Assembly: GCA_017467225.1 (NCBI GenBank) | Contig: JAFTSR010000206.1 | Location: forward strand, 1-12,875 | From: Clostridia bacterium | Lineage (GTDB): Bacteria; Bacillota_A; Clostridia; Oscillospirales; CAG-272 | DNA length: 12,875 bases | Reading direction: 5' to 3' | Shown: piece after piece, positions 1 through 12,875 of the stretch | Layout of the letters: every line of letters begins with the position of its first letter | How positions within the stretch are numbered: position 1 is the first letter of the stretch | The notes under the pieces: model-generated | What the model saw: only the letters and a program-made list of their open reading frames with translations | What the model was told of the DNA's origin: nothing | Databases searched by the model: none | Position numbers and translations under genes: made by a program

Positions 1-148
1 TGCGGTCTGCGAGATCATGCGCAAGAACCCCGTCAAGCTGACGCCCTGCATCTCGCACCACGTTCCCTTTGCGCAAGCGATGGACGTGTTTGTCAACGAA
101 GATCAGTATCACAAGGAAAAGATCAAGATCATGATCGATTTTGACTGA
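1..148 (+). CDS. C-terminal fragment of a zinc-type medium-chain alcohol/polyol dehydrogenase (5' end outside window)
   Basis: Only the last 48 residues are present, read in the frame that starts at base 2 and ends at TGA 146-148. The segment TPCISHHVPFAQAMDVF followed by a short helix and a K-x-K-I-M-I-D-F tail matches the end of the medium-chain dehydrogenase/reductase family. In that family the motif I-[ST]-H-x-[FV]-P-[FL]-x-x-A is followed by a final strand carrying K-V-[LM]-I. Members oxidise sugar alcohols, threonine or similar alcohols with NAD(P). The catalytic zinc and nucleotide-binding parts lie upstream and cannot be seen, so the substrate is unknown. A cupin gene begins 15 nt after the stop with a strong ribosome site, so the two are probably co-transcribed. 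Family assignment from so short a piece is moderately secure. Confidence 0.72.
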   Translation, partial: AVCEIMRKNPVKLTPCISHHVPFAQAMDVFVNEDQYHKEKIKIMIDFD

Positions 149-163
149 CAGGAGGAAACTACC

Positions 164-589
164 ATGGAAAAGAAACAGTTAGCACCGCTGCAGGTGGACG
201 TAGGCCGCGTCAAGCCGCTGATTTTCGGCAAGGAGTATGAGTCGCGCATGATTCTTGATCACGTCATCACGGGTCGCGACGATGTCATTCAGATCAACCA
301 CGGCACCGTCAAGGCCGGCTACGCGCTGGGCGGCGCGACCCACGATGAGGACGAAATCTACTACATTCTCTCCGGTCACGGCAAGCTCCAGCTGGACGAA
401 AAGATTGTGGATATCGCACCCAATCAGGTGATTTTCATCCCGGCCGGCTGTTTCCACGCGCTGGACAACCGCGATTCCGACGAGGATATGTGCATTCTGA
501 CCTTCTGGCGCGACTGGCGCTTCAACGACGCCTACGAGGAGCGCCTCAAGCAATGGGGCAAGTCGTTCAAGACGATCGACGAGGAGTAA
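164..589 (+). CDS. Small single-domain cupin protein (possible sugar isomerase/epimerase or metal-binding cupin)
   Basis: A 141-residue protein that is essentially one cupin beta-barrel. Cupin motif 1 is seen at about residues 57-73 (GGATHDEDEIYYILSGHG) and motif 2 at about 86-102 (PNQVIFIPAGCFHALDN). In the usual H-x-H-x3-E ... H metal site, H60, E64 and H98 are present, but the first histidine position is alanine (A58), so the metal site is incomplete or altered. There is no signal peptide, so it should be cytoplasmic. The start is fixed by AGGAGG at 150-155, 8 nt before ATG. It follows a dehydrogenase closely and ends just before a repeat element. Such small cupins next to sugar or polyol dehydrogenases often act in carbohydrate catabolism, but the reaction here cannot be told from sequence. 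Confidence 0.85.
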   Translation: MEKKQLAPLQVDVGRVKPLIFGKEYESRMILDHVITGRDDVIQINHGTVKAGYALGGATHDEDEIYYILSGHGKLQLDEKIVDIAPNQVIFIPAGCFHALDNRDSDEDMCILTFWRDWRFNDAYEERLKQWGKSFKTIDEE

Positions 590-632
590 GGCAAGGGGCG
601 GATATGGCAAGGGGCGCTGCCCCTTGACCCCG

Positions 633-662
633 CAAGAAACCTTTTTGAAAAAAGGTTTCTTG
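633..662. terminator. Long AT/GC hairpin after the cupin gene; possible transcription terminator
   Basis: CAAGAAACCTTTTT (633-646) pairs with 649-662 to give a 14-bp stem. It sits 44 nt past the cupin stop, just after the 8-bp GC hairpin at 608-626. A further hairpin, CCAAAA/TTTTGG at 667-680, follows, and then A/T-rich sequence. Transcripts from the dehydrogenase-cupin unit could end here. There is no clean T-run straight after the stem, and the hairpin is also the end of the repeat element, so a terminator role is inferred. Confidence 0.4.
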
Positions 663-969
663 ACTTCCAAAAACTTTTGGAAAAATTTTCAAGTTGAATT
701 TTTAGCGGTTCTGTTCTGGATATACGGATTGAGAACCCATGTGGGGCCCCTACCCCACAAGATGGATAAATGTTTTGTTTCGCGTTGGAATGAACATGTC
801 GAGCGCATTCGCAAGCGAATGCCGCCTGTCCCTACAAGACAGTCACAAGCAAGTTACATATCTGTTCGCCTGACATTTGGGGCAGGGGCCCCAAAAGGAT
901 AACAGAAGCGTTAGTTCAGAATACCACGACAAAAGCCTCCACCAAAACGGATCAAAAGTTTTTGGAATT

Positions 970-1022
970 CCTAAAACCTTTTTTCAAAAAGGTTTTAGGT
1001 GGGGGTACGGGGGTTAGCCCCC
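970..1022. repeat. Right-end hairpin pair of the repeat element
   Basis: CCTAAAACCTTTTT (970-983) pairs with 986-999 in a 14-bp stem. It is followed by a small GGGGG/CCCCC hairpin (1009-1013 with 1018-1022). This mirrors the left end in reverse order, with the GC hairpin outermost and the AAACC/GGTTT hairpin next. It lies about 40 nt before the deoC start and could affect read-through or the 5' leader of the deoC transcript. Confidence 0.6.
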
Positions 1023-1060
1023 GCATATAAACATATAAAACACAAAGGAGAACCACCATT

Positions 1061-1717
1061 ATGAAACCCTTAAACAAATACATCGATCACACCAACCTCA
1101 TGCCCTTCGCCACCCGCGCCGACATCGCAAAGCTCTGCGCCGACGCCAAAACCTGGAATTTCGCATCCGTTTGCGTCAACCCCTGTAACGTCAAGCTCGC
1201 CAAGGAGCTGCTTGCCGGCACCGACGTCGAGGTCTGCACCGTCATCGGCTTCCCTCTCGGGCAGAACACCACCGCACTGAAGGTCGCAGAGGCTGAGGCC
1301 GCATACGCCGACGGCTGCGAGGAGTTCGATATGGTCATCAACGTCGGCCGTCTCAAGGATGGTCAGACCGATTACGTCCGCGACGAGATCGCTGCCATTG
1401 TCAAGGCTGCCAAGGGTAAGACGGTCAAGGTCATCATCGAGACCGGTCTTCTGACCGACGAAGAAAAGGCAATTGCTACCCGCCTCTCCTGCGAGGCAGG
1501 CGCACATTACGTAAAAACCTGCTCCGGCGTGTCCCAGGGCGTGGCTACCGTTGCCGATATTACGCTGATGAAGGCAAACCTCAGCGGCAACGTCAAGCTC
1601 AAGGCCTCCTCCGGCATCCGCACCTACGAGGACGCCAAGGCGCTGATCGACGCAGGCGCTGAGCGTCTGGGCACCTCGGCAGGTATCGCCATCGTCACCG
1701 GCGCACCCAAGGCATAA
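1061..1717 (+). CDS. deoC: Deoxyribose-phosphate aldolase (DeoC)
   Basis: A 218-residue cytoplasmic class I aldolase of the usual bacterial length. It cleaves 2-deoxyribose-5-phosphate to glyceraldehyde-3-phosphate and acetaldehyde. Family landmarks are D-H-T-N-L at 9-13, V-I-G-F-P-L-G at 61-67, the D-M-V-I-N-V-G strand with D90, the Schiff-base lysine K152 in Y-V-K-T-C-S-G, the second active-site lysine K181 in K-A-S-S-G-I-R-T, and the phosphate loop L-G-T-S at 203-206. Two motifs differ from the textbook forms: KTCSG in place of KTSTG, and KASSG in place of KA[SA]GG. The catalytic lysines are kept. The start follows AAAGGAG (1044-1050) by 10 nt. The kinase gene begins 13 nt downstream, so the pair forms a (deoxy)ribose or nucleoside-sugar breakdown unit. 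Confidence 0.96.
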   Translation: MKPLNKYIDHTNLMPFATRADIAKLCADAKTWNFASVCVNPCNVKLAKELLAGTDVEVCTVIGFPLGQNTTALKVAEAEAAYADGCEEFDMVINVGRLKDGQTDYVRDEIAAIVKAAKGKTVKVIIETGLLTDEEKAIATRLSCEAGAHYVKTCSGVSQGVATVADITLMKANLSGNVKLKASSGIRTYEDAKALIDAGAERLGTSAGIAIVTGAPKA

Positions 1718-1730
1718 GGAGGCAGACATC

Positions 1731-2666
1731 ATGGCAAAAATTATCGGCCCCGGCTCGCTGATTGTCGACGTAACCGGCTTTGCGCCGCACCTGCCCGTGG
1801 CAGGCGAGACTACCAAGGGCTCAACGCTGCGCTTCGGTCCCGGCGGCAAGGGCTCCAACCAGATGACTGCGGCACACCGCGCCGGCTCGGACGTGCGCAT
1901 TATCAGCTGCCGCGGCGATGACGTGCTGGGTCAGATCCTCAAAAAGCACTACGAGACGGAGGGCATGAGTGAGCAGTACGTCAAGATCGATCCCAAGGCC
2001 GAGACAGCAAGTGCCCTCATTGAGATCGACGAGAGCGACGCGCAGAACCGTATTATTGTCATTTTCGCTGCCAACGAGCAGGTCGGACGCGAGAACGTCT
2101 ACGCTGCCGAGGCGGATTTTGCCGACTGCGACGCGGTGCTGACCCAGTTTGAGACCACCACCGAGGCTGTGATCGCCGCCAAGGAGCTGGCGCACAAGTA
2201 CGGCAAGCCGTTCATTCTCAACCCCGCTCCCTATATTCCCGTAGACTCCACTCTGTTTGACGGCGTGGATTTCGTCACACCGAACGAAACCGAGGCGGAG
2301 CAATTCACCGGCATCAAGGTGGACACCGTCGAGGACTGCCGCCTGGCTGCGCAAAAATTCTTTGAGATGGGCGTCAAGAACGTCATCATCACGCTGGGCG
2401 TGCGCGGCGCGTTCTACACCAACGGCCAAGAGGAGATCGTCGTGCCCTCCATCAAGGTCAAAGCGGTCGAAACGACCGGCGCGGGCGACGCCTTCAACGG
2501 CGGACTTTCCACCGCCATTGCCGAGGGCTTGCCCATGCAGACGGCGCTGCAGTTTGCCACCTGTACGGCTGCTATTTCGGTCACACGCCTGGGCTCCTCT
2601 CCCTCCATGCCCTACCGCCACGAGATTCTGGCGCTTTTGGAAAAGGAATTCGGTACCAAGCTGTAA
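1731..2666 (+). CDS. PfkB/ribokinase-family sugar kinase, candidate (deoxy)ribokinase
   Basis: A 311-residue cytoplasmic kinase of normal family length that phosphorylates a sugar hydroxyl with ATP. Visible signatures are the N-terminal G-S-L-I-V-D at 8-13, the sugar-binding G-G-K-G-S-N-Q at 38-44, N-P-A-P-Y in the centre, T-P-N-E-T-E just after it, and the anion-hole and catalytic motif T-T-G-A-G-D-A-F-N-G-G at 248-258 with catalytic base D253. These are closest to RbsK-type ribokinases. Its ribosome site AAGGAGG (1716-1722) overlaps the deoC stop codon, so translation is likely coupled. Because its partner is DeoC, the natural substrate may be 2-deoxyribose, giving deoxyribose-5-phosphate for the aldolase. 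Ribose or another pentose remains possible, and sequence alone does not separate these. Confidence 0.9.
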   Translation: MAKIIGPGSLIVDVTGFAPHLPVAGETTKGSTLRFGPGGKGSNQMTAAHRAGSDVRIISCRGDDVLGQILKKHYETEGMSEQYVKIDPKAETASALIEIDESDAQNRIIVIFAANEQVGRENVYAAEADFADCDAVLTQFETTTEAVIAAKELAHKYGKPFILNPAPYIPVDSTLFDGVDFVTPNETEAEQFTGIKVDTVEDCRLAAQKFFEMGVKNVIITLGVRGAFYTNGQEEIVVPSIKVKAVETTGAGDAFNGGLSTAIAEGLPMQTALQFATCTAAISVTRLGSSPSMPYRHEILALLEKEFGTKL

Positions 2667-2675
2667 CGTATATAC

Positions 2676-2717
2676 TCCCGCCCGCCCCACGCTTTGCCCA
2701 GGGTGAGGCGGGATTTT
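2676..2717 (+). terminator. Weak hairpin after the kinase gene
   Basis: TCCCGCC (2676-2682) pairs with GGCGGGA (2707-2713), followed by TTTTC. The loop is long (24 nt) with only weak internal pairing. It starts 10 nt past the kinase stop and could be a partial terminator or processing hairpin separating deoC-kinase from the DUF5054 unit. Confidence 0.45.
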
Positions 2718-2736
2718 CAAAATGATTTTGAATGAA

Positions 2737-2743
2737 AAAGGAG
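2737..2743 (+). promoter_or_regulatory. Ribosome binding site that fixes the DUF5054 start
   Basis: AAAGGAG ends 7 nt before ATG 2751. An in-frame GTG at 2745 would begin only 1 nt after this site, so the ATG at 2751 is preferred. The resulting protein begins M-R-I-L-V, directly at the first beta-strand of the family. Confidence 0.75.
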
Positions 2744-2750
2744 CGTGCCT

Positions 2751-4673
2751 ATGCGCATTTTGGTTCTGTTTAAGACGCACCTTGACGTCGGCTTTACCGA
2801 TTTCAGCGAGGCTGTGGTCAAAAAATACAACGAGCACTATATTCCCAAGGCGATTTCGGTGGCGCGAGAGGTTGCGGCATCGGGACGGGCTGAGGGATTT
2901 ATCTGGACGACGGGCAGCTGGCTGATCGCCCAGTATTTGCGCACGCAGAGTGCGCAGGCCGTCGCGCAGATGGAGGAAGCCATCCAAAACGGCTGGATCA
3001 GCTGGCATGCGCTGCCCTGTACCATGCATTCCGAGCTTTGCACAGGTGAGCTGTATGATTACGGCCTGTCGCTGTCGCGAGAGCTGGATGCGCGTTTCGG
3101 TCGGGAGACCATCGGCTCCAAGTGCACCGACGTGCCCGGACACACGGCGGCGATTGTTCCGCACTTGGCGAAAAGCGGCGTCACGCTACTGCATATCGGC
3201 GTCAATCCCGCATCGACCCCTGCTGACGTGCCGTCGGTCTTCCGCTGGCGATTTGAGGGCAGCGAGGTCAACGTGATGTACAATGGCGGAGACTACGGCG
3301 AGTTTACTCAAATTCCGGGCACGGACACCTACGTGTATTTTGCCCACACGGGCGACAATCTCGGACCGCAATCGGCGGCGGAAATTTTTGGCGTTTATGA
3401 TGCAATTCATGCAAAATATCCGGATGCGACGGTGTGCGCGGCTGATCTGAGTGATGTGGCGCGCGCGGTTGAGACGGTCAGGGATACGCTGCCGGTGGTT
3501 GAGACCGAGATGGGTGACACCTGGATTCACGGCGCTGCGACCGACCCACAAAAGATGGCGCAATATCGGGCGCTGCTGCGCTATGCCAAGAGTGCCGAGG
3601 CGGATGAAGCACGCGACATTTACAGCGCTTTGTTGCTTGTGCCCGAGCACACCTGGGGCTTGGACGAGAAAACGCACCTGGGTGAGAACGAAAATTATAT
3701 CCGTCCCCGCTTTGAAAAGGTGCGCAACAATTACAAATACAAAAAGATGGAGCTTTCCTGGGCGGAGCAGCGCAGGTATGTGCTGGATGCGGCGGACTGT
3801 GTCAGAGATGCTGCGATGCGCGAGGCGTTGCTTGGTGCGTGGTACGCGCAAAAGCCCGATTTTGCGGCTATGCGCGAACTGCCGGGCGGTGAGGCGAGGA
3901 TCGGCGGCATGCGCGTCGGATTTTCGGAGAGCGGTGAGATTGTTTCGCTGCATGATCCCGCGGCCGGTTTGGCGCTGGACGGTTGCCACCTGTTCGGCTT
4001 CTCTTACGATGAATATTCCTTTGACGAGGTCTGGGCGTTTCAGAATGCCTATCTGATCCCACGATATATCCGCGATTTTGAAGAGTCGGGCGTGCTCAAC
4101 TGGGGTATCAATGATTTTGGCAAGTATGGTCTGCAATACGAGCGCAACAAGCATACCGCCGCCGCGCCGCTGTCCTACCGCCTGTACACGGATGAGGTAT
4201 CCCTGCATGTGGTTTATGAAATGGACGCGCGCGTGAGCGCGGAAAACGGACAGCCGCCGGTCTGCATGCTCAAGATCACGCCTGTCGGGAAGGAAGTTCC
4301 CTTTGATTTTGCTTGGTTTGACAAGCCTGCCAATAGTGCGCCCGAGGCCATGTGGCTGCGCTTTGATCCGGGCTGCACGCTGCGCGGTATCTCCAAGCTG
4401 GGACACGTGATCGATCCAGCAAACGTTGTCGGGCACGGTGGACGCGGACTGCACGCGACCGACGGCACACTGTATTTTGACGGTGTCAAGCTGCAGAGTA
4501 TGGATGCGGTGCTGGTGTCGATCGGTGGCAAGAACGTCTACCGTTACGTGACCGAGATACCAAATATGGATGGCGGCGTTTATATCAATCTGTTCAACAA
4601 CCAGTGGGGAACCAACTTCCCTATGTGGTGTGAGGGCGACGGACGGGCGAGATTTGTCCTGTCCACGCAATGA
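2751..4673 (+). CDS. DUF5054 protein, glycoside hydrolase family 38-like (putative alpha-mannosidase-type enzyme)
   Basis: A 640-residue protein without a signal peptide, so probably cytoplasmic. The N-terminal half resembles the alpha/beta barrel of GH38 alpha-mannosidases. Its first strand ends in K-T-H-L-D-V-G-F-T (H10, D12), like the HxD zinc pair of GH38. D127 in T-D-V-P-G-H-T-A falls where GH38 has its zinc-binding nucleophile in D-x-F-G-H-S. P-E-H-T-W-G with H300 is a candidate fourth ligand. The C-terminal part (roughly 375-640) looks like beta-sandwich sequence. I recognise the whole as the DUF5054 family from memory; its substrate is not known to me. The zinc-ligand mapping is inferred. 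The glycyl radical enzyme gene starts 20 nt after its stop, so the two are probably co-expressed. It may trim an imported oligosaccharide or glycoside. Confidence 0.82.
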   Translation: MRILVLFKTHLDVGFTDFSEAVVKKYNEHYIPKAISVAREVAASGRAEGFIWTTGSWLIAQYLRTQSAQAVAQMEEAIQNGWISWHALPCTMHSELCTGELYDYGLSLSRELDARFGRETIGSKCTDVPGHTAAIVPHLAKSGVTLLHIGVNPASTPADVPSVFRWRFEGSEVNVMYNGGDYGEFTQIPGTDTYVYFAHTGDNLGPQSAAEIFGVYDAIHAKYPDATVCAADLSDVARAVETVRDTLPVVETEMGDTWIHGAATDPQKMAQYRALLRYAKSAEADEARDIYSALLLVPEHTWGLDEKTHLGENENYIRPRFEKVRNNYKYKKMELSWAEQRRYVLDAADCVRDAAMREALLGAWYAQKPDFAAMRELPGGEARIGGMRVGFSESGEIVSLHDPAAGLALDGCHLFGFSYDEYSFDEVWAFQNAYLIPRYIRDFEESGVLNWGINDFGKYGLQYERNKHTAAAPLSYRLYTDEVSLHVVYEMDARVSAENGQPPVCMLKITPVGKEVPFDFAWFDKPANSAPEAMWLRFDPGCTLRGISKLGHVIDPANVVGHGGRGLHATDGTLYFDGVKLQSMDAVLVSIGGKNVYRYVTEIPNMDGGVYINLFNNQWGTNFPMWCEGDGRARFVLSTQ

Positions 4674-4680
4674 TCCGGGC

Positions 4681-4685
4681 GGAGG
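4681..4685 (+). promoter_or_regulatory. Ribosome binding site that fixes the glycyl radical enzyme start
   Basis: GGAGG lies 8 nt before ATG 4694. Two earlier in-frame ATGs exist. The one at 4670 overlaps the DUF5054 stop but precedes this site, and the one at 4688 is only 2 nt from it. ATG 4694 is the best start, although an ATGA overlap start at 4670 cannot be excluded. Confidence 0.7.
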
Positions 4686-4693
4686 TAATGACT

Positions 4694-6796
4694 ATGACCA
4701 ATATAGAAAGAGTCAGCAAACTGCGCGCGAGTGCTGTCGCGCCGGCGGTTTGCTATTTGGAATTTTACCTGCATTTTTACCGTTATTTTCAAGAAAAAGA
4801 GCTTCCGTACAGCCATGATCGGTACGGCGAGGCGTTTTACTATGCCTGCGAGCGTGTCACGCCCGTCATCGAGTCGGGCGAGCTGATCGTCGGGCGGGTG
4901 GTAGGAGGCCTTGATACCGGGATGACAGCCGAGTGGAACGGCACGCTGGGCGCCTTTGCACGGCAGACGGCGGCAGCCGCCGGTGGGGGTCAGGACTCGC
5001 ATATGGCGATCGACTATCCGCTGCTGCTGTCGTGCGGCATTGAAGGCGTGATCGCCAAGCTTGACGCGTATGCGGCAGAGAATACTGCCGAGAGTGCGCA
5101 GTTGTTTTATTGCAACGCGCGCCGCTGCCTGCAGGGCGTGGTGCTGCTCTCCGAGCGGTATGCAACGCTGGCCGAGAGTATGGCGCGGCACTGTGAGAAT
5201 GCCGACGAGCGCGCGGAGCTTAGCGAGATCGCGCGCATCTGTCGTGCGGTACCCAAGCACCCTGCGACCACCTTTTACGAGGCGGTGCATTCGGCGCATT
5301 TTGTTTCTCTTTGCGTGTCGTTCAATCCGCTGCGCCTGTGTCCGCAGCAGTTTCAGCTGGGACATCCCGACCGCTATCTGCTTGCATACTATGAGGCGGA
5401 TGTGGCGGCAGGGCGCATTGACCGCGAACGTGCGCAGCTGCTGATGGATTGCCTGGCCATTCAGATCAATCACCGTGTCCCTGCCGGACTTTCCAGCGGC
5501 TACATGCTGGGCGGACGGGACGAGAGCGGCGCGGTGGTGGCCAACGAGGTGACCGAGCTGGGACTTCGCGCCATTGACGAGGTGCGCTTGGTCTATCCTG
5601 CGGTCGGCTTTTGCTACACGGCGGATATGCCCGATCACTATCTGGCACTGTCCTGCGAGATTTTGTCGCACGGCTGCTCGCATCCCGCGATCTTCAACGA
5701 TGATATCATCACGCAAGGACTGATGGAATACGGTCTGCCGCGCGAGGAAGCGTGTAACTATATCCACAGCACTTGCGTTGAGATTACGCCGGTGGCCTCA
5801 TCCCACGTTTGGGTAGCTTCGCCGTACACCAATCTGCTTGCCATTCTCCTGGATGTCATGCAGGGTGATCATGCAAGCTACGAGTCGCTTGTCGCAGCCT
5901 ACCGTCAAAAGCTGGCGGACAGCATCCGTGCCAATTTTGAAGCACACAACGCGGCGCGCAAGCACCGCGCGACGCACGCCTTCAATCCGCTGCTTTCCTG
6001 CTTTGTCAACGATTGCCTGCGCGACGGTGTGGACATTGAGTGGGGCGGCGGTCGTTACAACTGGATTATGCCCTCCTTTGTCGGCATGGCCAATCTGGTG
6101 GACTCGCTGTATGCCATCAGAACGTTGGTGTATGAGGAAAAATCGCTGACGCTTTCGGAATATCTTGCCGTGCTGGCGGATAATTTCAAGGGGCACGAGG
6201 CGCTGCACGCGCGCATTCTCAACAAGCTGCCCAAGTACGGCAACGACACCGATGACGTAGACGCGCTGTTCGGTGAGATGACCGCCTTTATTATCTCGGA
6301 GTGCCGCAAACACACCCCCATTCACCAAAATGCGCGGCTGGTTCCCAGCGTCTTTTGCTACGTTCGTCACGAGCAGTTCGGCGCGCAGACGGGGGCGACG
6401 CCCGACGGACGCCTCGCGACCTTCCCCTTGGGCGATGGCTCCGGACCTGCGCAGGGCAGGGAGCTGTGCGGACCGACGGCGTCCATTATCTCCAGCACCA
6501 AGTGGTCGCATAAGGAGTTTATCGGCGGCGTGGCGGTCAATATCAAGTTTGCCAAAAAGCACTTTGACGGCGACTCGCTTGCCAAGGTCATGGCGCTGGT
6601 CAAGACCTACATGCAACGCGGCGGATTTGAGCTGCAGGTCAACGTGATCGATCGTGACACGCTGCTCCGCGCGCGCGAAAATCCTGCGGCGTACAGTGAT
6701 CTTGTGGTGCGCATCGGCGGCTACAGCGATTACTTTGTCCGCCTCTCCCCACGTATGCAGCAGGAGGTTATCACGCGTACCGAGCACGAGCTTTAA
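4694..6796 (+). CDS. Glycyl radical enzyme of the pyruvate formate-lyase/dehydratase superfamily, substrate unknown
   Basis: A 700-residue oxygen-sensitive radical enzyme. Near the C-terminus is R-I-G-G-Y-S with G676 as the predicted radical site, 24 residues from the end as expected. The thiyl loop is at S-T-C-V-E-I-T-P with C361 and E363. A C-x-E pair is typical of eliminase/dehydratase or decarboxylase members rather than PFL itself (C-C) or X-succinate synthases. T-P-D-G-R, G-P-T-A-S and G-G-V-A-V-N near residues 570-615 are further superfamily signatures. The loop has threonine where most members have glycine before the cysteine, and the protein is shorter than typical 760-850 residue relatives. 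It needs a radical-SAM activating enzyme, and none is encoded nearby. It sits between the DUF5054 gene and a membrane-protein gene, with 20 and 11 nt gaps. Confidence 0.93.
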   Translation: MTNIERVSKLRASAVAPAVCYLEFYLHFYRYFQEKELPYSHDRYGEAFYYACERVTPVIESGELIVGRVVGGLDTGMTAEWNGTLGAFARQTAAAAGGGQDSHMAIDYPLLLSCGIEGVIAKLDAYAAENTAESAQLFYCNARRCLQGVVLLSERYATLAESMARHCENADERAELSEIARICRAVPKHPATTFYEAVHSAHFVSLCVSFNPLRLCPQQFQLGHPDRYLLAYYEADVAAGRIDRERAQLLMDCLAIQINHRVPAGLSSGYMLGGRDESGAVVANEVTELGLRAIDEVRLVYPAVGFCYTADMPDHYLALSCEILSHGCSHPAIFNDDIITQGLMEYGLPREEACNYIHSTCVEITPVASSHVWVASPYTNLLAILLDVMQGDHASYESLVAAYRQKLADSIRANFEAHNAARKHRATHAFNPLLSCFVNDCLRDGVDIEWGGGRYNWIMPSFVGMANLVDSLYAIRTLVYEEKSLTLSEYLAVLADNFKGHEALHARILNKLPKYGNDTDDVDALFGEMTAFIISECRKHTPIHQNARLVPSVFCYVRHEQFGAQTGATPDGRLATFPLGDGSGPAQGRELCGPTASIISSTKWSHKEFIGGVAVNIKFAKKHFDGDSLAKVMALVKTYMQRGGFELQVNVIDRDTLLRARENPAAYSDLVVRIGGYSDYFVRLSPRMQQEVITRTEHEL

Positions 6797-6807
6797 GGAG
6801 GTTACAC

Positions 6808-7758
6808 ATGGAAAATTTTGATGCCAAAAAATTTGCAAAGCAGTTGAAATTCAAGGCGGGCTTTTGGCAAATCTTTGCCGCTGTGGCGTGCGTGGGTCTG
6901 ATGCTGACCACGCTGCTTTCCGACGAGATTGGGCTGGGCCGGGTCATATTGGCGATTGTGGTATATTTTATCATTCGTACTGTGATTATACTGGACTACA
7001 ACCGCAGGCTTTACGCGCTGCTCCACGATGGGCTGGCACCGACGCGCCTTCTGGACGTGATGCGTGAGGGCAGAATTTACTCGCGCAGCGGTGTGCTTGA
7101 GCTGCACGCGGCGTTAGCAGCCGGACAGTGGCAGCGCGTGGCGGACATCTGTGCGCAAAAGCTGAACGACCCTCAGTACCGTTTGAAGAAGCACGTTTAT
7201 ATGGGCTTTTTGGCAGATATGTACTTCAATCTGGCAGATGATGCTCATCTGCGCGAGGTTTGCGACGCGTTTGATGCGTACGTTGCGGCAAGCAAGCCGG
7301 ACGCCATCCTGCAGCGGATGAAAGAGCCTATGGCGTATTACCGTGACTATCTGGATGGCGCATACGAGCGCTGCTTTGCGTACCGCGAAAAGACGCAGGC
7401 ACAGGCGGCCAAGGCCAAGCCCAACCGCTATGCCACGGCCATCCGCGATTTTGAGCATGCGGTGGTTTGCTTCCGTGCAGGACACATGGACGAAGCGCAG
7501 GTGCTGTTTGAGCGCGTTGTCGCGGATGCGCCGCAGTTGGCGCTGGCGACGCTGTCGGAGGAATACCTGCGCGCGCTGCGAGAGGGTGGCGAGCCTTGCT
7601 TTGGCGAGCGCGTGACACCCAGCGGTCAGGATTGCCTGCCGCCCATTCCCAAATCCCATCGCGTGCTGCGCGTCATAGCACGTGTGGCTATGACCGTGGC
7701 TCTCATTATGCTTGCTGTAGCGGCTGTTCTTTTGCTGGCTGTTGAGATGATTACGTAA
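6808..7758 (+). CDS. Unrecognised membrane protein with TPR-like cytoplasmic helices
   Basis: A 316-residue protein that I cannot assign to a named family. Two hydrophobic segments near the N-terminus (about residues 19-37 and 43-62) form a hairpin in the membrane. A third at about 293-312 is close to the C-terminus. Between them are amphipathic helix pairs reminiscent of tetratricopeptide repeats, clearest at about 95-150 and 208-260 (for example F-E-H-A-V-V-C-F-R-A-G-H-M-D-E-A). The start follows AAGGAGG (6795-6801), which overlaps the stop of the glycyl radical enzyme gene, so the two are very likely translated from one mRNA. A scaffold or membrane-anchoring role is conceivable but is only inferred from the layout. 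Confidence 0.82.
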   Translation: MENFDAKKFAKQLKFKAGFWQIFAAVACVGLMLTTLLSDEIGLGRVILAIVVYFIIRTVIILDYNRRLYALLHDGLAPTRLLDVMREGRIYSRSGVLELHAALAAGQWQRVADICAQKLNDPQYRLKKHVYMGFLADMYFNLADDAHLREVCDAFDAYVAASKPDAILQRMKEPMAYYRDYLDGAYERCFAYREKTQAQAAKAKPNRYATAIRDFEHAVVCFRAGHMDEAQVLFERVVADAPQLALATLSEEYLRALREGGEPCFGERVTPSGQDCLPPIPKSHRVLRVIARVAMTVALIMLAVAAVLLLAVEMIT

Positions 7759-7760
7759 AA

Positions 7761-7809
7761 TATGGAAAATGTCCAAACGCATCTTACCATTTTCCATAGA
7801 CATTTTTCC
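7761..7809. promoter_or_regulatory. Overlapping inverted repeats at the promoter (possible operator or alternative hairpins)
   Basis: TATGGAAAATG (7761-7771) is a perfect 11-bp inverted repeat with 7788-7798, whose right arm touches the -35 box. The same left arm can also pair with GACATTTTTCC (7799-7809), which runs through the -35 into the spacer, with one bulged A. Three copies of a GGAAA(A)ATG-like half-site therefore crowd the promoter. This could be an operator, or a hairpin ending the upstream transcript. The stretch is only partly T-rich, so I cannot choose between them. Confidence 0.5.
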
Positions 7810-7825
7810 CCGAATGTGCTATAAT
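7797..7825 (+). promoter_or_regulatory. Sigma-A promoter for the GH28-like lipoprotein gene
   Basis: TAGACA (7797-7802) and a perfect TATAAT (7820-7825) are separated by 17 bp. The start codon at 7863 follows about 30 nt after the expected start of transcription, with GGGAGG at 7848-7853 as the ribosome site. Confidence 0.8.
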
Positions 7826-7862
7826 GAGATACAAACGCTATTGTTGAGGGAGGAAAAATTAC

Positions 7863-9956
7863 ATGAAACTCGTTTGCTTTCGCATGCTGAAAACCGTATT
7901 GATCGCTCTTTTGGCGCTGGGGCTTTGCGCCTGTGGCACGCCGGAGCAGCCGGATGGCACCAAGCAAGACCCACCTGTTGAGCAGCCGCCCGAAGTAACT
8001 CCCGAGCCCGAGCCGATCCCAGACCCGATCGAGCTGTGGGTCATGGACGCGCCATACAACGCTAAGGGTGATGGCGTAACCAATGATCGTGCGGCCATCC
8101 AAGCGGCGATTGATGACGCGCATGCCGCACCGGGCGGCGGTATTGTTCATCTCAATGCCGGCAAGGTGTTCTGTATGGGTAACATTATGCTGCGCAGCAA
8201 CGTCGAGCTGCATTTTGAGGACGGCGCTATGATCTTGCAGAGCGACGACCCTTCGGATTTTGTCAATCCGCTCAAGGGCTTTGTCGAGCAGGAGCTGGTG
8301 ATGGGGCAGTATGTCAATTCCAATATCCAATGGGATGCGGCGGCGTTTTACAATTTCCCTCTGATTTACGCAGGCACAGGAACGACCAACGTTAAGATCA
8401 CCGGTAAGGGTGTCATCGAGATGGCGGCGGGCAACGATCCGCGCGGTATTATGACCATGCAGGCTATCGGCTTTTTCGATGTGGACGGCTATGAGCTGTC
8501 CGGCTTTACCGTGCAAAAATCTCATGCCTACTGCATCAAGGCGGTGGCATGTCAGAACGGATTGTACAAGAATTTGAAGATTGATATCACCGGTGGAACC
8601 ATGGGCGGTACGGACGGCATCAACCTCAATGGCTGCCGAAATATCCGCGTGACCGGCTGTGATCTCAACACTGGCGACGATGGTGTGTACATCGCGTCCA
8701 CCTACAAGGACCCCAGAGAGGGCTTGTGGTACAATTGTGACAACCCGTTGCCCATTGAGAACATCGAGATCGATAACAACCATTGCGAAGTGGCTTGGGA
8801 TGAGACCAAAGCGTTCGCCTTTATTCTGTGGGGGTCAACCTATCCCGATCAGAAGCAGGTTGAGGTCAACAACATTTATATCCACGACAACTATTTTGAA
8901 AGCATGGGCGCATGGTCGGGCTGCTGGAATTTGGAAACACGTACCTACGACGGTAACGGCTCCAACAATCCCATCAAGAACGTTCGCTTTGAGAACAACG
9001 AGGTCGATCGCATCCAAAGCAATTTTTACGGCGTGCCGATCAGCGACGTTTACGGCTTTGACTGCATGACCACGCTGCAAAATGGCGATTTTGCGCAGGA
9101 TGATATTTACTGGATTTCTCGCGGTGGTGAGAGTGCCGGTGAGACGGGCGGACACGGCTTCCTCAAGCCGGATGGCGCGGATGCCGCACTGTATCAGGGC
9201 TTGAAACTGACGGCAGGTCTGGCCTACGAACTCACGGCCGACGTAACCACCGACGGTGGTGCATACCGCCTATATGTCCGCGATCAGGTGACGCAAAAGC
9301 TGATCGCTTCCAAGGATATTACTGCCGGCAGCAAGGCAACCGTGGTGTTGAGCTTTGAGGTGCCGACGACGGGTAACTATCACGTGGGCATTGAGTGCGG
9401 TGACGCGAAAGCCGGCACGGCGGAGATCGACAATGTGACGCTTGCGGCAGATCTTGGTGGCGAGCTGAGCGATGGTAATACGTTGTTCACCGATTTTGAG
9501 CCGACCTCGGTCAAGGATGGCGGCGGCATGCGCAACGAGCTGGGCTTTGTCTTCTCGTCCCGTGTGAACGGAGAGGTAATGGCCGTGCGCATCTACACGG
9601 CAGAGCGCGAGGCGGGCATCCATTACGTCAGCCTTTGGGACACGGCAACGGGTAAACTGGTGAGCGATGAGATCTACGAGTGGGAGATTGTACCCGGCTA
9701 TGAGGGCTGGCGTGAATTTGAGCTGCCCGAGAGCGTCAGCATCAAGGCAGGGAAGAAGTACACCGTTTCGGTGTCTGCCGGCCCGGATTGTCTGTTCTCC
9801 TGGGGTGAGGCGCAGCTCAAGTCCCCGATTGAGAGTGACGATCTTGTGACCTACCCGAACGGCGGTGTTTACAGCGCCGACGGCGTTCTTGGTAAGATGC
9901 CAGCCGGTGCGACGGCGAGTAACTATTTCCGCGATATTGTCTTTATTGCTGATTGA
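7863..9956 (+). CDS. Secreted lipoprotein: GH28-like right-handed beta-helix protein with CBM-like region and DUF4082 domain
   Basis: A 697-residue surface protein. A signal peptide ends in the lipobox L-C-A-C with lipidated C24, followed by a P/E-rich linker to about residue 55. The beta-helix (about 57-400) opens with Y-N-A-K-G-D-G-V-T-N-D, typical of pectate-lyase-3/GH28 proteins. G-T-D-G-I-N (D251) and N-T-G-D-D-G (D272, D273) match the polygalacturonase aspartates with the canonical 21-residue spacing. The expected G-H-G histidine motif is instead A-F-A-F-I-L-W-G-S, so galacturonase chemistry is doubtful. Residues about 403-530 (starting T-L-Q-N-G-D-F) resemble a CBM4/9-type sandwich. 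Residues about 540-697 match DUF4082 (R-I-Y ... S-L-W-D-T-A-T-G ... I-K-A-G-K-K-Y). It likely binds or cleaves a polysaccharide at the cell surface. It has its own promoter. Confidence 0.88.
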   Translation: MKLVCFRMLKTVLIALLALGLCACGTPEQPDGTKQDPPVEQPPEVTPEPEPIPDPIELWVMDAPYNAKGDGVTNDRAAIQAAIDDAHAAPGGGIVHLNAGKVFCMGNIMLRSNVELHFEDGAMILQSDDPSDFVNPLKGFVEQELVMGQYVNSNIQWDAAAFYNFPLIYAGTGTTNVKITGKGVIEMAAGNDPRGIMTMQAIGFFDVDGYELSGFTVQKSHAYCIKAVACQNGLYKNLKIDITGGTMGGTDGINLNGCRNIRVTGCDLNTGDDGVYIASTYKDPREGLWYNCDNPLPIENIEIDNNHCEVAWDETKAFAFILWGSTYPDQKQVEVNNIYIHDNYFESMGAWSGCWNLETRTYDGNGSNNPIKNVRFENNEVDRIQSNFYGVPISDVYGFDCMTTLQNGDFAQDDIYWISRGGESAGETGGHGFLKPDGADAALYQGLKLTAGLAYELTADVTTDGGAYRLYVRDQVTQKLIASKDITAGSKATVVLSFEVPTTGNYHVGIECGDAKAGTAEIDNVTLAADLGGELSDGNTLFTDFEPTSVKDGGGMRNELGFVFSSRVNGEVMAVRIYTAEREAGIHYVSLWDTATGKLVSDEIYEWEIVPGYEGWREFELPESVSIKAGKKYTVSVSAGPDCLFSWGEAQLKSPIESDDLVTYPNGGVYSADGVLGKMPAGATASNYFRDIVFIAD

Positions 9957-9986
9957 TGTAACGCATTGATCATTGATTACTCATGG

Positions 9987-10024
9987 CAGGGCGGTGCGGC
10001 TGCGATAGCGGCTGCACCGCCCTG
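9987..10024 (+). terminator. GC-rich hairpin after the GH28-like gene
   Basis: CAGGGCGGTGC (9987-9997) pairs perfectly with GCACCGCCCTG (10014-10024), giving an 11-bp stem with a 16-nt loop. It begins 30 nt after the stop codon. The following sequence is only mildly T-rich (TTCGTATGCCTTGTC), so termination may be inefficient. Confidence 0.65.
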
Positions 10025-10034
10025 TTCGTATGCC

Positions 10035-10080
10035 TTGTCAAAAAAGAATTAACATTTTTTGTCAAAAAAGTTGAAACTTT
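10035..10080. repeat. 24-bp-spaced direct repeats and a palindrome just upstream of a promoter
   Basis: TTGTCAAAAAAG occurs at 10035-10046 and again at 10059-10070, 24 bp start to start. It is followed by the palindrome AAAGTT-GA-AACTTT (10067-10080), which ends 3 bp before the -35 box. These sites lie where an activator, a repressor or an A-tract/UP element would act. Confidence 0.55.
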
Positions 10081-10083
10081 CTG

Positions 10084-10112
10084 TTGACTTTTTCGGTGAA
10101 ATAGTATAGAAT
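10084..10112 (+). promoter_or_regulatory. Sigma-A promoter for the CBM9-like lipoprotein gene
   Basis: TTGACT (10084-10089) and TAGAAT (10107-10112) are 17 bp apart. TATAGA two bases earlier would give a 15-bp spacer and is less likely. The leader is about 70 nt, with AAAGGAG at 10174-10180 before ATG 10190, and contains a small GCATGG/CCGTGC hairpin at 10147-10161. Confidence 0.75.
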
Positions 10113-10189
10113 ATGTGTACACAAGTCATGCGGTATGATTTGCACTGCATGGCAACCGTGCCAAAAAATACATAAAGGAGAATTTTACA

Positions 10190-11518
10190 ATGAAGAAACT
10201 GCTTGTAATGCTGCTGGCTCTGGCAATGATGATCACTTGCATCGCTATGACCGCATGCACCGACAACGAACAGACTCCTGATGGTGATCAGGGTGAGCAG
10301 GGCGATACCCCTGAGAACCCCGATGAGCCTGCGCACACCCACGCCGGTGGCGAGGCTACCTGTACCGCAAAGGCAAAGTGCGCTGATTGCGGCGAGGAGT
10401 ACGGCGATCTTGCTGATCACGACTATGATAAGAAGGGTATCTGCAAGGTTTGTGGAGCTAAGGACCCTGAGGTCGAGGCTGAGGAGAAGGCTGCCGCTGA
10501 GGCTGCTGCTCCCGTTATCGAGCTGATCAAGGCTCTGGAGGGCATCACCGAGGTCAACGAGGCTAACCTGGCTGACGCACAGGCAAAGTACAACGCTGCT
10601 AATGACGCGTACAATGCTCTGGATAAGGCCGGCAAGGACGCCGTTGGCAAGGAAACCAAGGCTATCCTGACCGCTTGCAAGAACCTGATCAAGGACTATG
10701 AGACCGCGATCGAGTCTATCAAGGCTGCTGCAGAGTGGAAGGAAACCGTTTGGGCGGCTCTGCCCCAGACCAAGATTGCAAACGCTACCATCACCATCGA
10801 CGGTGAGTTTGATAACGATGCAATGAATAAGTGCACGCCTATGACTCTGACCAAGGAGCAGTGCGACACTTGGAACGGTGAGGGCCGTAAGGACGGCGCA
10901 GGTGTCGTTGGCGATACCGATCTGACCGCAGGTGCTGAGACTGATATCAGCTTCTACGTTATGTACGATAACGATTATCTGTACATTGTTGAGTGGCGCT
11001 GCGACCTGAACTGGAACTTCTCCGCACAGGACTTCAAGAAGTCCTACACCGGTGACGGTTCTCTGCTTTGGTTCGTTAACACCGGCGATGCTGCTACCTG
11101 GATCGCTAACGGCGGTTCTGCTGAGGGCGGCGACAAGCCTGCTTTCGGTCTGATGTGGAACGCCGGTATCGGCGGCGAGAAGCCCGGCGAGAACAAGCCG
11201 CAGATCGCTTACTACCCTGAGGATGACCAGTCCGCTCCCGATGAGAAGACTGCTTCCGGTAAGTGGAATTACGCTCTGAAGTGGGATGCTGACAAGTACT
11301 ACTACGTGCTTGAGGTTGCTATTCCGTGGGCAGACGTTCCCTTTACCTTTGCTGACATGGATGCAGGTAACATCTCTGCTACCTTCTGCTCCGTTGACAT
11401 CGTTAGCCCTGAGTTCGACGGTGACTCCAGCAAGCTGTGGGCAGGTATGGGCTACCAGATGCAGTACCCCGGTGTTAACAACTGGTGTCTGTCTCAGCCT
11501 CTGATCCCCAACAAATAA
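10190..11518 (+). CDS. Secreted lipoprotein with Cys-rich segment, helical spacer and CBM9-like carbohydrate-binding domain
   Basis: A 442-residue exported lipoprotein. The signal peptide ends in M-T-A-C with lipidated C23. An acidic stretch follows, then a segment at about 49-89 with cysteines C58, C64, C67, C85 and C88 and several histidines (C-A-D-C-G-E-E-Y-G ... C-K-V-C-G). This is a short Zn-ribbon-like repeat seen in clostridial surface proteins. Residues 95-175 are helical and Ala/Lys/Glu-rich. From about 197 the sequence fits a CBM9/DOMON-like sandwich: I-T-I-D-G-E-F-D, F-Y-V-M-Y-D-N-D-Y-L-Y-I, and L-E-V-A-I-P-W. There is no catalytic domain, so it probably presents a sugar-binding module at the surface. 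Codons are strongly biased to GCT, GAG, AAG and CTG compared with its neighbours, suggesting high expression. It has its own promoter and terminator. Confidence 0.83.
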   Translation: MKKLLVMLLALAMMITCIAMTACTDNEQTPDGDQGEQGDTPENPDEPAHTHAGGEATCTAKAKCADCGEEYGDLADHDYDKKGICKVCGAKDPEVEAEEKAAAEAAAPVIELIKALEGITEVNEANLADAQAKYNAANDAYNALDKAGKDAVGKETKAILTACKNLIKDYETAIESIKAAAEWKETVWAALPQTKIANATITIDGEFDNDAMNKCTPMTLTKEQCDTWNGEGRKDGAGVVGDTDLTAGAETDISFYVMYDNDYLYIVEWRCDLNWNFSAQDFKKSYTGDGSLLWFVNTGDAATWIANGGSAEGGDKPAFGLMWNAGIGGEKPGENKPQIAYYPEDDQSAPDEKTASGKWNYALKWDADKYYYVLEVAIPWADVPFTFADMDAGNISATFCSVDIVSPEFDGDSSKLWAGMGYQMQYPGVNNWCLSQPLIPNK

Positions 11519-11542
11519 TTTTCTGAATAAGCAAATCACACT

Positions 11543-11572
11543 GCGCCCTCCGACTCCGTCGGAGGGTGCTTT
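11543..11572 (+). terminator. Rho-independent terminator after the CBM9-like lipoprotein gene
   Basis: GCGCCCTCCGAC (11543-11554) pairs with GTCGGAGGGTGC (11558-11569) around a TCC loop, with one G-T pair. A T-rich tail (TTTGTTGTCTT) follows. It lies 24 nt after the stop codon. Confidence 0.88.
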
Positions 11573-11611
11573 GTTGTCTTATAGGCGGCAAATGCGACGA
11601 AATTTTGAAAA

Positions 11612-11646
11612 AATTGTAAAAAAGTCGCGATAAAAAATTTACAATT
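11612..11646. promoter_or_regulatory. Inverted repeat upstream of the SH3 lipoprotein promoter (possible operator/UP region)
   Basis: AATTGTAAA (11612-11620) is the perfect reverse complement of TTTACAATT (11638-11646), 17 bp apart. The right arm ends 16 bp before the -35 box. A shorter pair, CGCCG (11651-11655) and CGGCG (11676-11680), brackets the -35. The region is very AT-rich, so part of the symmetry could be chance. Confidence 0.4.
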
Positions 11647-11662
11647 ACACCGCCGATATATC

Positions 11663-11691
11663 TTGACAAGCAGGGCGGCGTATGCTATAAT
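11663..11691 (+). promoter_or_regulatory. Perfect-consensus sigma-A promoter for the SH3 lipoprotein gene
   Basis: TTGACA (11663-11668), a 17-bp spacer and TATAAT (11686-11691) match the consensus exactly. The leader is about 90 nt. It contains an 8-bp hairpin, ATAGCAGC (11724-11731) with GCTGCTAT (11742-11749), and the ribosome site GGAGG (11774-11778) 8 nt before ATG. Confidence 0.9.
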
Positions 11692-11786
11692 ATAGGCAGT
11701 GAAACTTTGTCTACCCACAATATATAGCAGCGTCTCCCTGTGCTGCTATCATACATATACGGAATGTAAAAGCGGAGGAAGAAAAA

Positions 11787-12785
11787 ATGTTGAAAAAGAT
11801 TTTAGCGTTTGCATTGGCACTTTTGATCGCGGCATCCATGGCGGCTTGCAATGATGATCAGCCCGAGGAAAATCCCGACGATCAGCACGGACAACAGACT
11901 GACAATACCGATCCCGAAAATCCCGGCACGACCGACCCGATCACTGATCCGGAGCCTGAACCCCAGCCTGAGCCTGAACCCGAGCCCCAGCCCGTTGATC
12001 CCGAGGCTGAAATGGAGGAGGTCAGCGAGCAGGTTTACGCAACGGTAACCGTTGATCTGCGCTCCGCTCCTGCCATTGAAGACAACGTGGTGGCTGTGCT
12101 GCGCTACGGTCAGAGAGCGACTCGCATCAAGAAGGGTACGACCTGGAGCAAGATTTCCTACCAGGGCGCGGATTATTACGTTGCTTCCAACTGCCTGGCG
12201 TTGTACGACGACAGCGTTGTGCTGCCCGGCGATAAGGACGACGAGCCGGGCTCGACTGTCGCGCCCGACACTTCCGATTTTGTCAAGCTGGATGCACCTG
12301 AGACGGTGTACGTCGTCGTTGACACGGCGCTCAACCTGCGTGCTGAGCCGCATATCAACGGTGAGGTCAAGATGCGTGTCGGCTTTGCTACTAAGATGCA
12401 GCGTGTGGCGCTCAACAACAGCTGGAGTGAGGTCGTTTACAACGGTCAGACCTACTACGCATATTCCGACTTTTTGACCAACGAGCAGATCACCGACGAG
12501 GGCTATACTCCCCTGGCAGCGCCGCAGACCATGTATGTCACGGTGCAGTCGATGTGGGTGCGCTACTATCCGAGCATGCTGGAGGCAGCCAAGGTGCCCT
12601 ATACCGTGATGGACGGTCTGCACTACGGCGATGCCGTACAGGTGATTGCTATCTCGCCCGATAACGCATGGGCTAAGGTCATCATTATGGGTGACGAATA
12701 TTATGTCGGCTATCAGTTCCTCTCAACGGCCGCTCCTGCCGGCAGCGGTGAGATCGTGGAGCCTGAGATCCCCGGCGGTAAATAA
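11787..12785 (+). CDS. Secreted lipoprotein with three SH3-like repeats on an acidic/proline stalk
   Basis: A 332-residue surface lipoprotein. The signal peptide ends in M-A-A-C with lipidated C21. Residues 22-80 are an acidic stalk rich in D, P, E and Q, including a PEPEPQ-type run at about 54-72. Three related bacterial SH3-like units follow, at about 82-140, 169-235 and 245-318. Each opens with a V-Y-x-T/V-V strand, has a basic/proline turn (L-R-S-A-P, L-R-A-E-P, V-R-Y-Y-P), a central W (W-S-K, W-S-E, W-A-K), and ends in a G-x-x-Y-Y-x motif. Such SH3b units usually bind peptidoglycan or cell-wall polymers, or mediate protein contacts. No hydrolase domain is present. The gene has its own consensus promoter and strong terminator, so it is a single-gene unit. 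Its precise role is unknown. Confidence 0.88.
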   Translation: MLKKILAFALALLIAASMAACNDDQPEENPDDQHGQQTDNTDPENPGTTDPITDPEPEPQPEPEPEPQPVDPEAEMEEVSEQVYATVTVDLRSAPAIEDNVVAVLRYGQRATRIKKGTTWSKISYQGADYYVASNCLALYDDSVVLPGDKDDEPGSTVAPDTSDFVKLDAPETVYVVVDTALNLRAEPHINGEVKMRVGFATKMQRVALNNSWSEVVYNGQTYYAYSDFLTNEQITDEGYTPLAAPQTMYVTVQSMWVRYYPSMLEAAKVPYTVMDGLHYGDAVQVIAISPDNAWAKVIIMGDEYYVGYQFLSTAAPAGSGEIVEPEIPGGK

Positions 12786-12796
12786 GATACAATTTG

Positions 12797-12826
12797 CAAG
12801 GAGCCCATGACGGGCTCCTTGTTTTT
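12797..12826 (+). terminator. Strong rho-independent terminator after the SH3 lipoprotein gene
   Basis: CAAGGAGCCC (12797-12806) pairs perfectly with GGGCTCCTTG (12812-12821) around a 5-nt loop, followed by TTTTT (12822-12826). It starts 12 nt after the stop codon. Confidence 0.95.
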
Positions 12827-12847
12827 ACCGAAAATTGCAGATACTAC

Positions 12848-12875
12848 TTGACAATACGGCGAAAATGTGGTACAA
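12848..12875 (+). promoter_or_regulatory. Promoter of the next gene, cut by the window end
   Basis: TTGACA (12848-12853) is followed by exactly 17 bp and then TACAA (12871-12875), the first five bases of a -10 box like TACAAT. The gene it drives lies beyond the window. Confidence 0.65.

Follow-up and report, generated by a model that had tools for sequence, protein, structure and literature searches.

Three adjacent genes on the forward strand of contig JAFTSR010000206.1 of a Clostridia bacterium (assembly GCA_017467225.1) encode a DUF5054 protein, a short glycyl radical enzyme (GRE) and a membrane protein, and the question raised by this locus is whether their products act in one pathway. 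We analysed positions 1 to 12,875 of the contig (the window; 12.9 kb, nine predicted complete genes) and examined the gene layout, the predicted folds, the conserved residues and the distribution of the three genes. The reading that we favour, tentatively and with less than even confidence when taken as a whole, is a narrow operon in which a DUF5054 glycosidase is encoded together with a GRE radical lyase and possibly supplies its substrate.

Layout and predicted products of the three-gene unit

The genes for DUF5054 (2751..4673), the GRE (4694..6796) and the membrane protein (6808..7758) are spaced 20 and 11 nt apart, and a Shine-Dalgarno-like sequence lies ahead of all three starts; the ATG start of DUF5054 at 2751 was chosen over a GTG at 2745 because of this ribosome site. 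The open reading frames, the spacing and the ribosome sites bear out the layout given in the original prediction, and the three genes are a real operon-like unit. A codon-based caller likewise selects all three frames; having been trained partly on the window's own DUF5054 and GRE genes, it adds little by agreeing. Downstream, a strong sigma-70-like promoter sequence (TAGACA-17-TATAAT, 11/12, TG before the -10; 7797..7825, forward strand) likely serves the next gene and marks the edge of the unit, judging by the match to the consensus. Upstream, a GC-rich hairpin followed by AUUUU (2676..2713, forward strand) is a possible terminator or attenuator: the RNA fold of 2664-2730 has an energy of -24.4 kcal/mol (z -3.42), equalled by 0 of 200 shuffles. 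The hairpin is not among the sites listed by the consensus terminator scan; such promoter and terminator scans are no proof of function.

The DUF5054 protein (640 amino acids) matches PF16477 with 105.6 bits (cut-off 37.6). Its GH38-like nature is upheld by the predicted structure (pLDDT 91.5), for which GH38 structures head both the Foldseek and the VIA lists, with 510 of the 640 residues aligned to 2wyi of S. pyogenes. The GH38N model of Pfam does not match the protein and a profile search of solved structures gave nothing significant. H10, D12, D127 and H260 are invariant across 34 aligned proteins; going by GH38 motifs, they may correspond to the GH38 zinc site (His, Asp, Asp nucleophile and His). 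The GH38 alpha-mannosidases (2wyi, 5kbp of E. faecalis, the jack bean enzyme and Golgi mannosidase II) share the fold, and DUF5054 has conserved His and Asp residues where their zinc site is expected, but the identity is only 9-14% and their length is approximately 830-1180 residues. Based on the model, DUF5054 is a putative cytoplasmic, zinc-dependent glycosidase of the GH38 fold, which would bind zinc and hydrolyse a glycoside.

The membrane protein (316 amino acids) has two N-terminal and one C-terminal hydrophobic stretches, as judged by eye. Its earlier description as TPR-like holds, if weakly: TPR_12 is weakly matched in six of ten aligned members of the family (best E 1.9e-5), whereas the family scan of the window's own protein returned 0 families. 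Homologues of this protein number 12 among the scored candidates; within one order, 4 of the 295 genomes contain remote matches (17-26% identity).

Residues and relatives of the glycyl radical enzyme

The GRE (700 amino acids) matches PF02901 (350.8 bits) and PF01228 (82.3 bits; cut-off 22.2). The thiyl-cysteine motif CxE is present as CVE, with C361 found in 201/201 and E363 in 200/201 aligned sequences, and the C-terminal glycine-radical motif (R-x-G/A-G-Y) as RIGGY at 673-677, with the radical glycine at G676. These features and the length confirm a short GRE of the eliminase type. The clade is large: of 7997 candidates scored, 1100 are homologous at E 1e-3 or below. The enzyme shares the PFL-like barrel, the CxE loop and the C-terminal glycine-radical loop with glycerol/propanediol dehydratase, CutC, HypD, PflD/YbiW and IseG, but it is only 22-29% identical to them in structure alignments, is shorter than their chains (764-836 residues) and is set apart by W457, W604 and H358, which are conserved in its clade.

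Concerning its assignment, none of the curated equivalogs of NCBIfam tried as its identity was reached (HypD 336.9 of 1100 bits, CutC 270.1 of 1050, HpsG 308.9 of 1000), and no other listed model exceeds its cut-off. The enzyme is thus assigned to no characterised GRE, in line with the original prediction, and its sequence suggests a radical lyase of an uncharacterised clade. Distinct GRE sequence clusters have often proved to have distinct reactions. The identity to 8yjo (26-29%) and to 8id7 (24-26%) is below the approximately 60% that PMC6453916 takes to divide GREs of distinct function, and this places the enzyme outside the PflD/YbiW lyases. No function for the clade was found by the equivalog test or in the accessible parts of the literature; a 2024 review describes the functions of many abundant gut GREs as unknown (PMC11574389).

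Proposed pathway and competing explanations

In the favoured reading, DUF5054 would probably hydrolyse an alpha-mannoside-like glycoside in the cytoplasm and may supply the substrate molecule of the GRE. A radical-SAM activase encoded elsewhere would act in trans and make the radical on Gly676, from which it would move to Cys361; Cys361 would take a hydrogen atom adjacent to a hydroxyl that Glu363 deprotonates, with cleavage of a C-O or C-N bond in a small polar molecule of the sugar, polyol or amino-alcohol type. The membrane protein would be accessory, and a scaffold role for it is a guess. The functional link between DUF5054 and the GRE is quite possible, if short of probable, and the pathway from glycosidase to radical lyase is one that we infer.

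We compared the neighbourhoods of GRE relatives (the best 80 of 86 loci found) and of DUF5054 relatives (21 loci, L104-L122, L139 and L140, with flanks of up to about 8 kb on each side); all comparators are at most 60% identical to the window proteins, and many of the contigs with GRE loci are short. The nine complete genes of the window include no radical-SAM activase and no microcompartment shell-protein, aldehyde dehydrogenase, formate or amine gene. The absence of the well-known GRE contexts is thus as originally described, and a microcompartment or formate/amine context was rejected for the 12.9 kb of the window. An activase lies at most 400 nt downstream of the GRE in 32/80 loci. Among the 71 relatives with at least 900 nt downstream, it is directly behind the GRE in 31 and not in 40, so that a GRE without an adjacent activase is not unusual; seven further loci with flanks of about 1.5 kb or less gave no match to the activase query. 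An AraC gene is divergent upstream of the GRE in 13 of the 71 loci with at least 900 nt upstream. In the loci of gut Clostridia that combine GRE, activase and divergent AraC (such as L001, L004, L005, L010 and L012), the GRE is 56-59% identical to that of the window, which has neither the activase downstream nor AraC upstream.

Further arrangements were seen in these sets. In L028 (1748-6977), a clade GRE (57%) stands in tandem with an activase and a further, divergent GRE (29%). Opposite-strand ribokinase-like and nucleoside hydrolase genes lie directly behind the GRE in L060 (11141-12942), and L023 has the same cluster pair at a distance of about 8 kb from its GRE. A glycerate kinase gene is divergent from the clade GRE in L048 (8663-9856) and, by sequence cluster, in L069. 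Several genomes of 2.6-3.5 Mb are rich in glycyl radical domains: G002, G009, G006 and G007 have 10, 10, 9 and 8 PF01228 matches, respectively, and in G325 the window GRE is matched six times at 1e-60.

Several results weigh against the favoured reading. By tblastn at E 1e-6, DUF5054 and the membrane protein gene are found in 0/80 GRE loci. The GRE, the membrane protein and the activase are in turn matched in none of the 21 DUF5054 loci, where identity to the window DUF5054 is 28-46% in 20 and 58% in L139. The recurring three-family unit of the original prediction is therefore not seen in these comparators. A clade GRE (55-56%) is present in 3 of the 21 DUF5054 genomes, never on the contig that carries DUF5054 (any match to the GRE at 1e-60: 4/21), and DUF5054 is matched in 1 of 11 genomes drawn from GRE loci. 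The conservation of the GRE's active site suggests that the whole clade acts on a single class of substrate, and the members examined have no DUF5054 neighbour. Nor do glycosidases stand out beside the GRE. When the first gene on the same strand that encodes 300 amino acids or more and lies no further than 300 nt from the GRE on either side is taken, with the activase skipped, glycosidases (with DUF2961 and a heparinase-like lyase counted) make up 8 of 41 genes (33 scanned directly, 8 assigned by sequence cluster) versus 2 of 20 control genes (Fisher p 0.47). The controls were a random draw from 55 genes of at least 300 amino acids, on either strand, with a distance of over 4 kb to every GRE. 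A clade-wide pairing had looked striking among hand-picked neighbours, but with this defined set it was given no weight. Two further points, taken up below, are the replacement of Asp by Ala375 and an operon that is no less compatible with a nitrogen-bearing substrate than with a sugar.

Some of these results support another explanation, which we regard as a substantial possibility though still a doubtful one: the adjacent genes have no common function, a GRE of the clade that stands alone and has its activase elsewhere having come to lie between unrelated glycosidase and membrane protein genes, and co-transcription is incidental. Besides the lack of co-occurrence and the frequent lack of an adjacent activase, the catalytic residues of the GRE are near-invariant regardless of the adjoining genes, whose content is highly varied (GH78, GH95, GH127, GH43/32-like, GH106, GH38-type, heparinase-like, DUF2961, acyltransferases, peptidases, a URO-D-like gene and others). 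Against it stand the tight spacing with a ribosome site at each junction, and evidence from closer relatives. Homologues of the GRE (P0002, 76%), DUF5054 (P0124, 72%) and the membrane protein (P0243, 77%) all have the same longest contig listed, of 39,142 bp; co-location in a second species is therefore likely, the listing giving neither order nor distance, and this suggests that close relatives preserve the grouping. In the samples searched, the closest matches are 59% for DUF5054, found in 16/394 genomes of one order (1e-30), and 26% for the membrane protein. No relative was found in viral contigs and all plasmid matches are below 60% identity, and a viral or plasmid origin was rejected. The three genes are probably a small, narrowly distributed operon of a narrow group of likely uncultured Clostridia, and the host, to judge by relatives, is probably a gut member.

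A different explanation concerns the reaction: the GRE may be no polyol dehydratase but a lyase of C-N bonds or cyclic substrates (of the amino-alcohol, hydroxyproline or amino-sugar type) like CutC, HypD and HplG. V374 and A375 align with the H/D pair (C+13/C+14) of 1r8w and 5i2a, which separates the enzyme from the glycerol/propanediol dehydratases, where we take the C+14 Asp to have a functional role; PflD also has H/D, and Ala375 is Ala in 196/201 aligned GREs. The counterparts of V374/A375/Y378 are V/L/Y in HypD and T/S/Y in CutC, and the best solved match of the clade profile is a CutC (494 bits), followed by glycerol dehydratase (476). The most pathway-like GRE context, the operon of L063 (3215-13050), joins a clade GRE and activase with, ahead of the GRE, an amidohydrolase, a SelA-like gene, three YjgF-like genes (two scanned), two SDRs and a TIM-barrel isomerase, and L064 has a matching stretch, assigned by sequence cluster to the domains scanned in L063; by analogy, it hints at a nitrogen-bearing substrate. 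However, the L063/L064 GREs are only 49% identical to that of the window, the enzyme has low identity to the solved GREs, which are tied in their structural scores, the HypD and CutC models are missed by a wide margin, and the HypD alignment has a gap beside CVE. We consider this explanation unlikely. A pocket arginine was rejected as an anion anchor, the residue not being conserved in the wider alignment.

Even less likely is that the GRE cleaves a polyol or an anhydro-sugar, in the manner of PflD/YbiW or of a pentitol dehydratase, and feeds the two genes directly upstream: deoxyribose-phosphate aldolase (DeoC, 1061-1717; TIGR00126, 262.4 bits, above the cut-off of 117.3) and a ribokinase-like PfkB kinase (1731-2666; TIGR02152, 296.3 bits, slightly below the cut-off of 299.65). 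According to PMC12441222, which cites Ma et al. 2024, the substrates cleaved by YbiW and PflD are 1,5-anhydroglucitol- and 1,5-anhydromannitol-6-phosphate. PflD is indeed the best solved match for the single GRE sequence (290.6 bits), but V-A replaces the H-D of diol dehydratases and PflD, the hairpin separates the pair from the three genes, DeoC is matched in none of the 80 GRE loci and ribokinase-like genes in 3, adjacent only in L060. A common pathway with the DeoC-ribokinase pair was rejected on the hairpin and the DeoC count. The closest DeoC match is 72% identical, and in the family of one such genome the GRE is found in 7/21 genomes at 48-60% identity.

Surrounding features and meaning for the two families

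The window begins with the tail of a further gene, ending at 148, followed by a cupin gene (164-589). Between cupin and deoC, two 69-nt arms (611-679 and 953-1021; 78% complementary, 273 nt apart) each contain an inner, perfect 14-bp hairpin and look like a repeat element of intergenic type; a 22-nt core, sought as an exact match, occurs in 0 of 140 loci compared. Downstream of the unit, a gene for a GH28-like, DUF4082-containing protein (7863-9956) is followed by one whose product matches no family (10190-11518) and one for a bacterial-SH3 protein (11787-12785), the last preceded by a perfect TTGACA-17-TATAAT promoter-like site (11663-11691). All complete genes of the window are on the forward strand. 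The Rfam scan of the window gave no match.

For DUF5054, a family of unknown function on which our literature search found no paper, the analysis provides a structural assignment to the GH38 fold. It seems somewhat unlikely, on present evidence, that the GRE clade performs an undescribed radical elimination on a sugar- or amino-sugar-derived molecule of the animal gut, released in this lineage by an intracellular GH38-type hydrolase. For this large clade, with its almost fixed active site and no assigned function found, the unit nevertheless gives one testable hypothesis for the substrate: the product of a GH38-type hydrolase.
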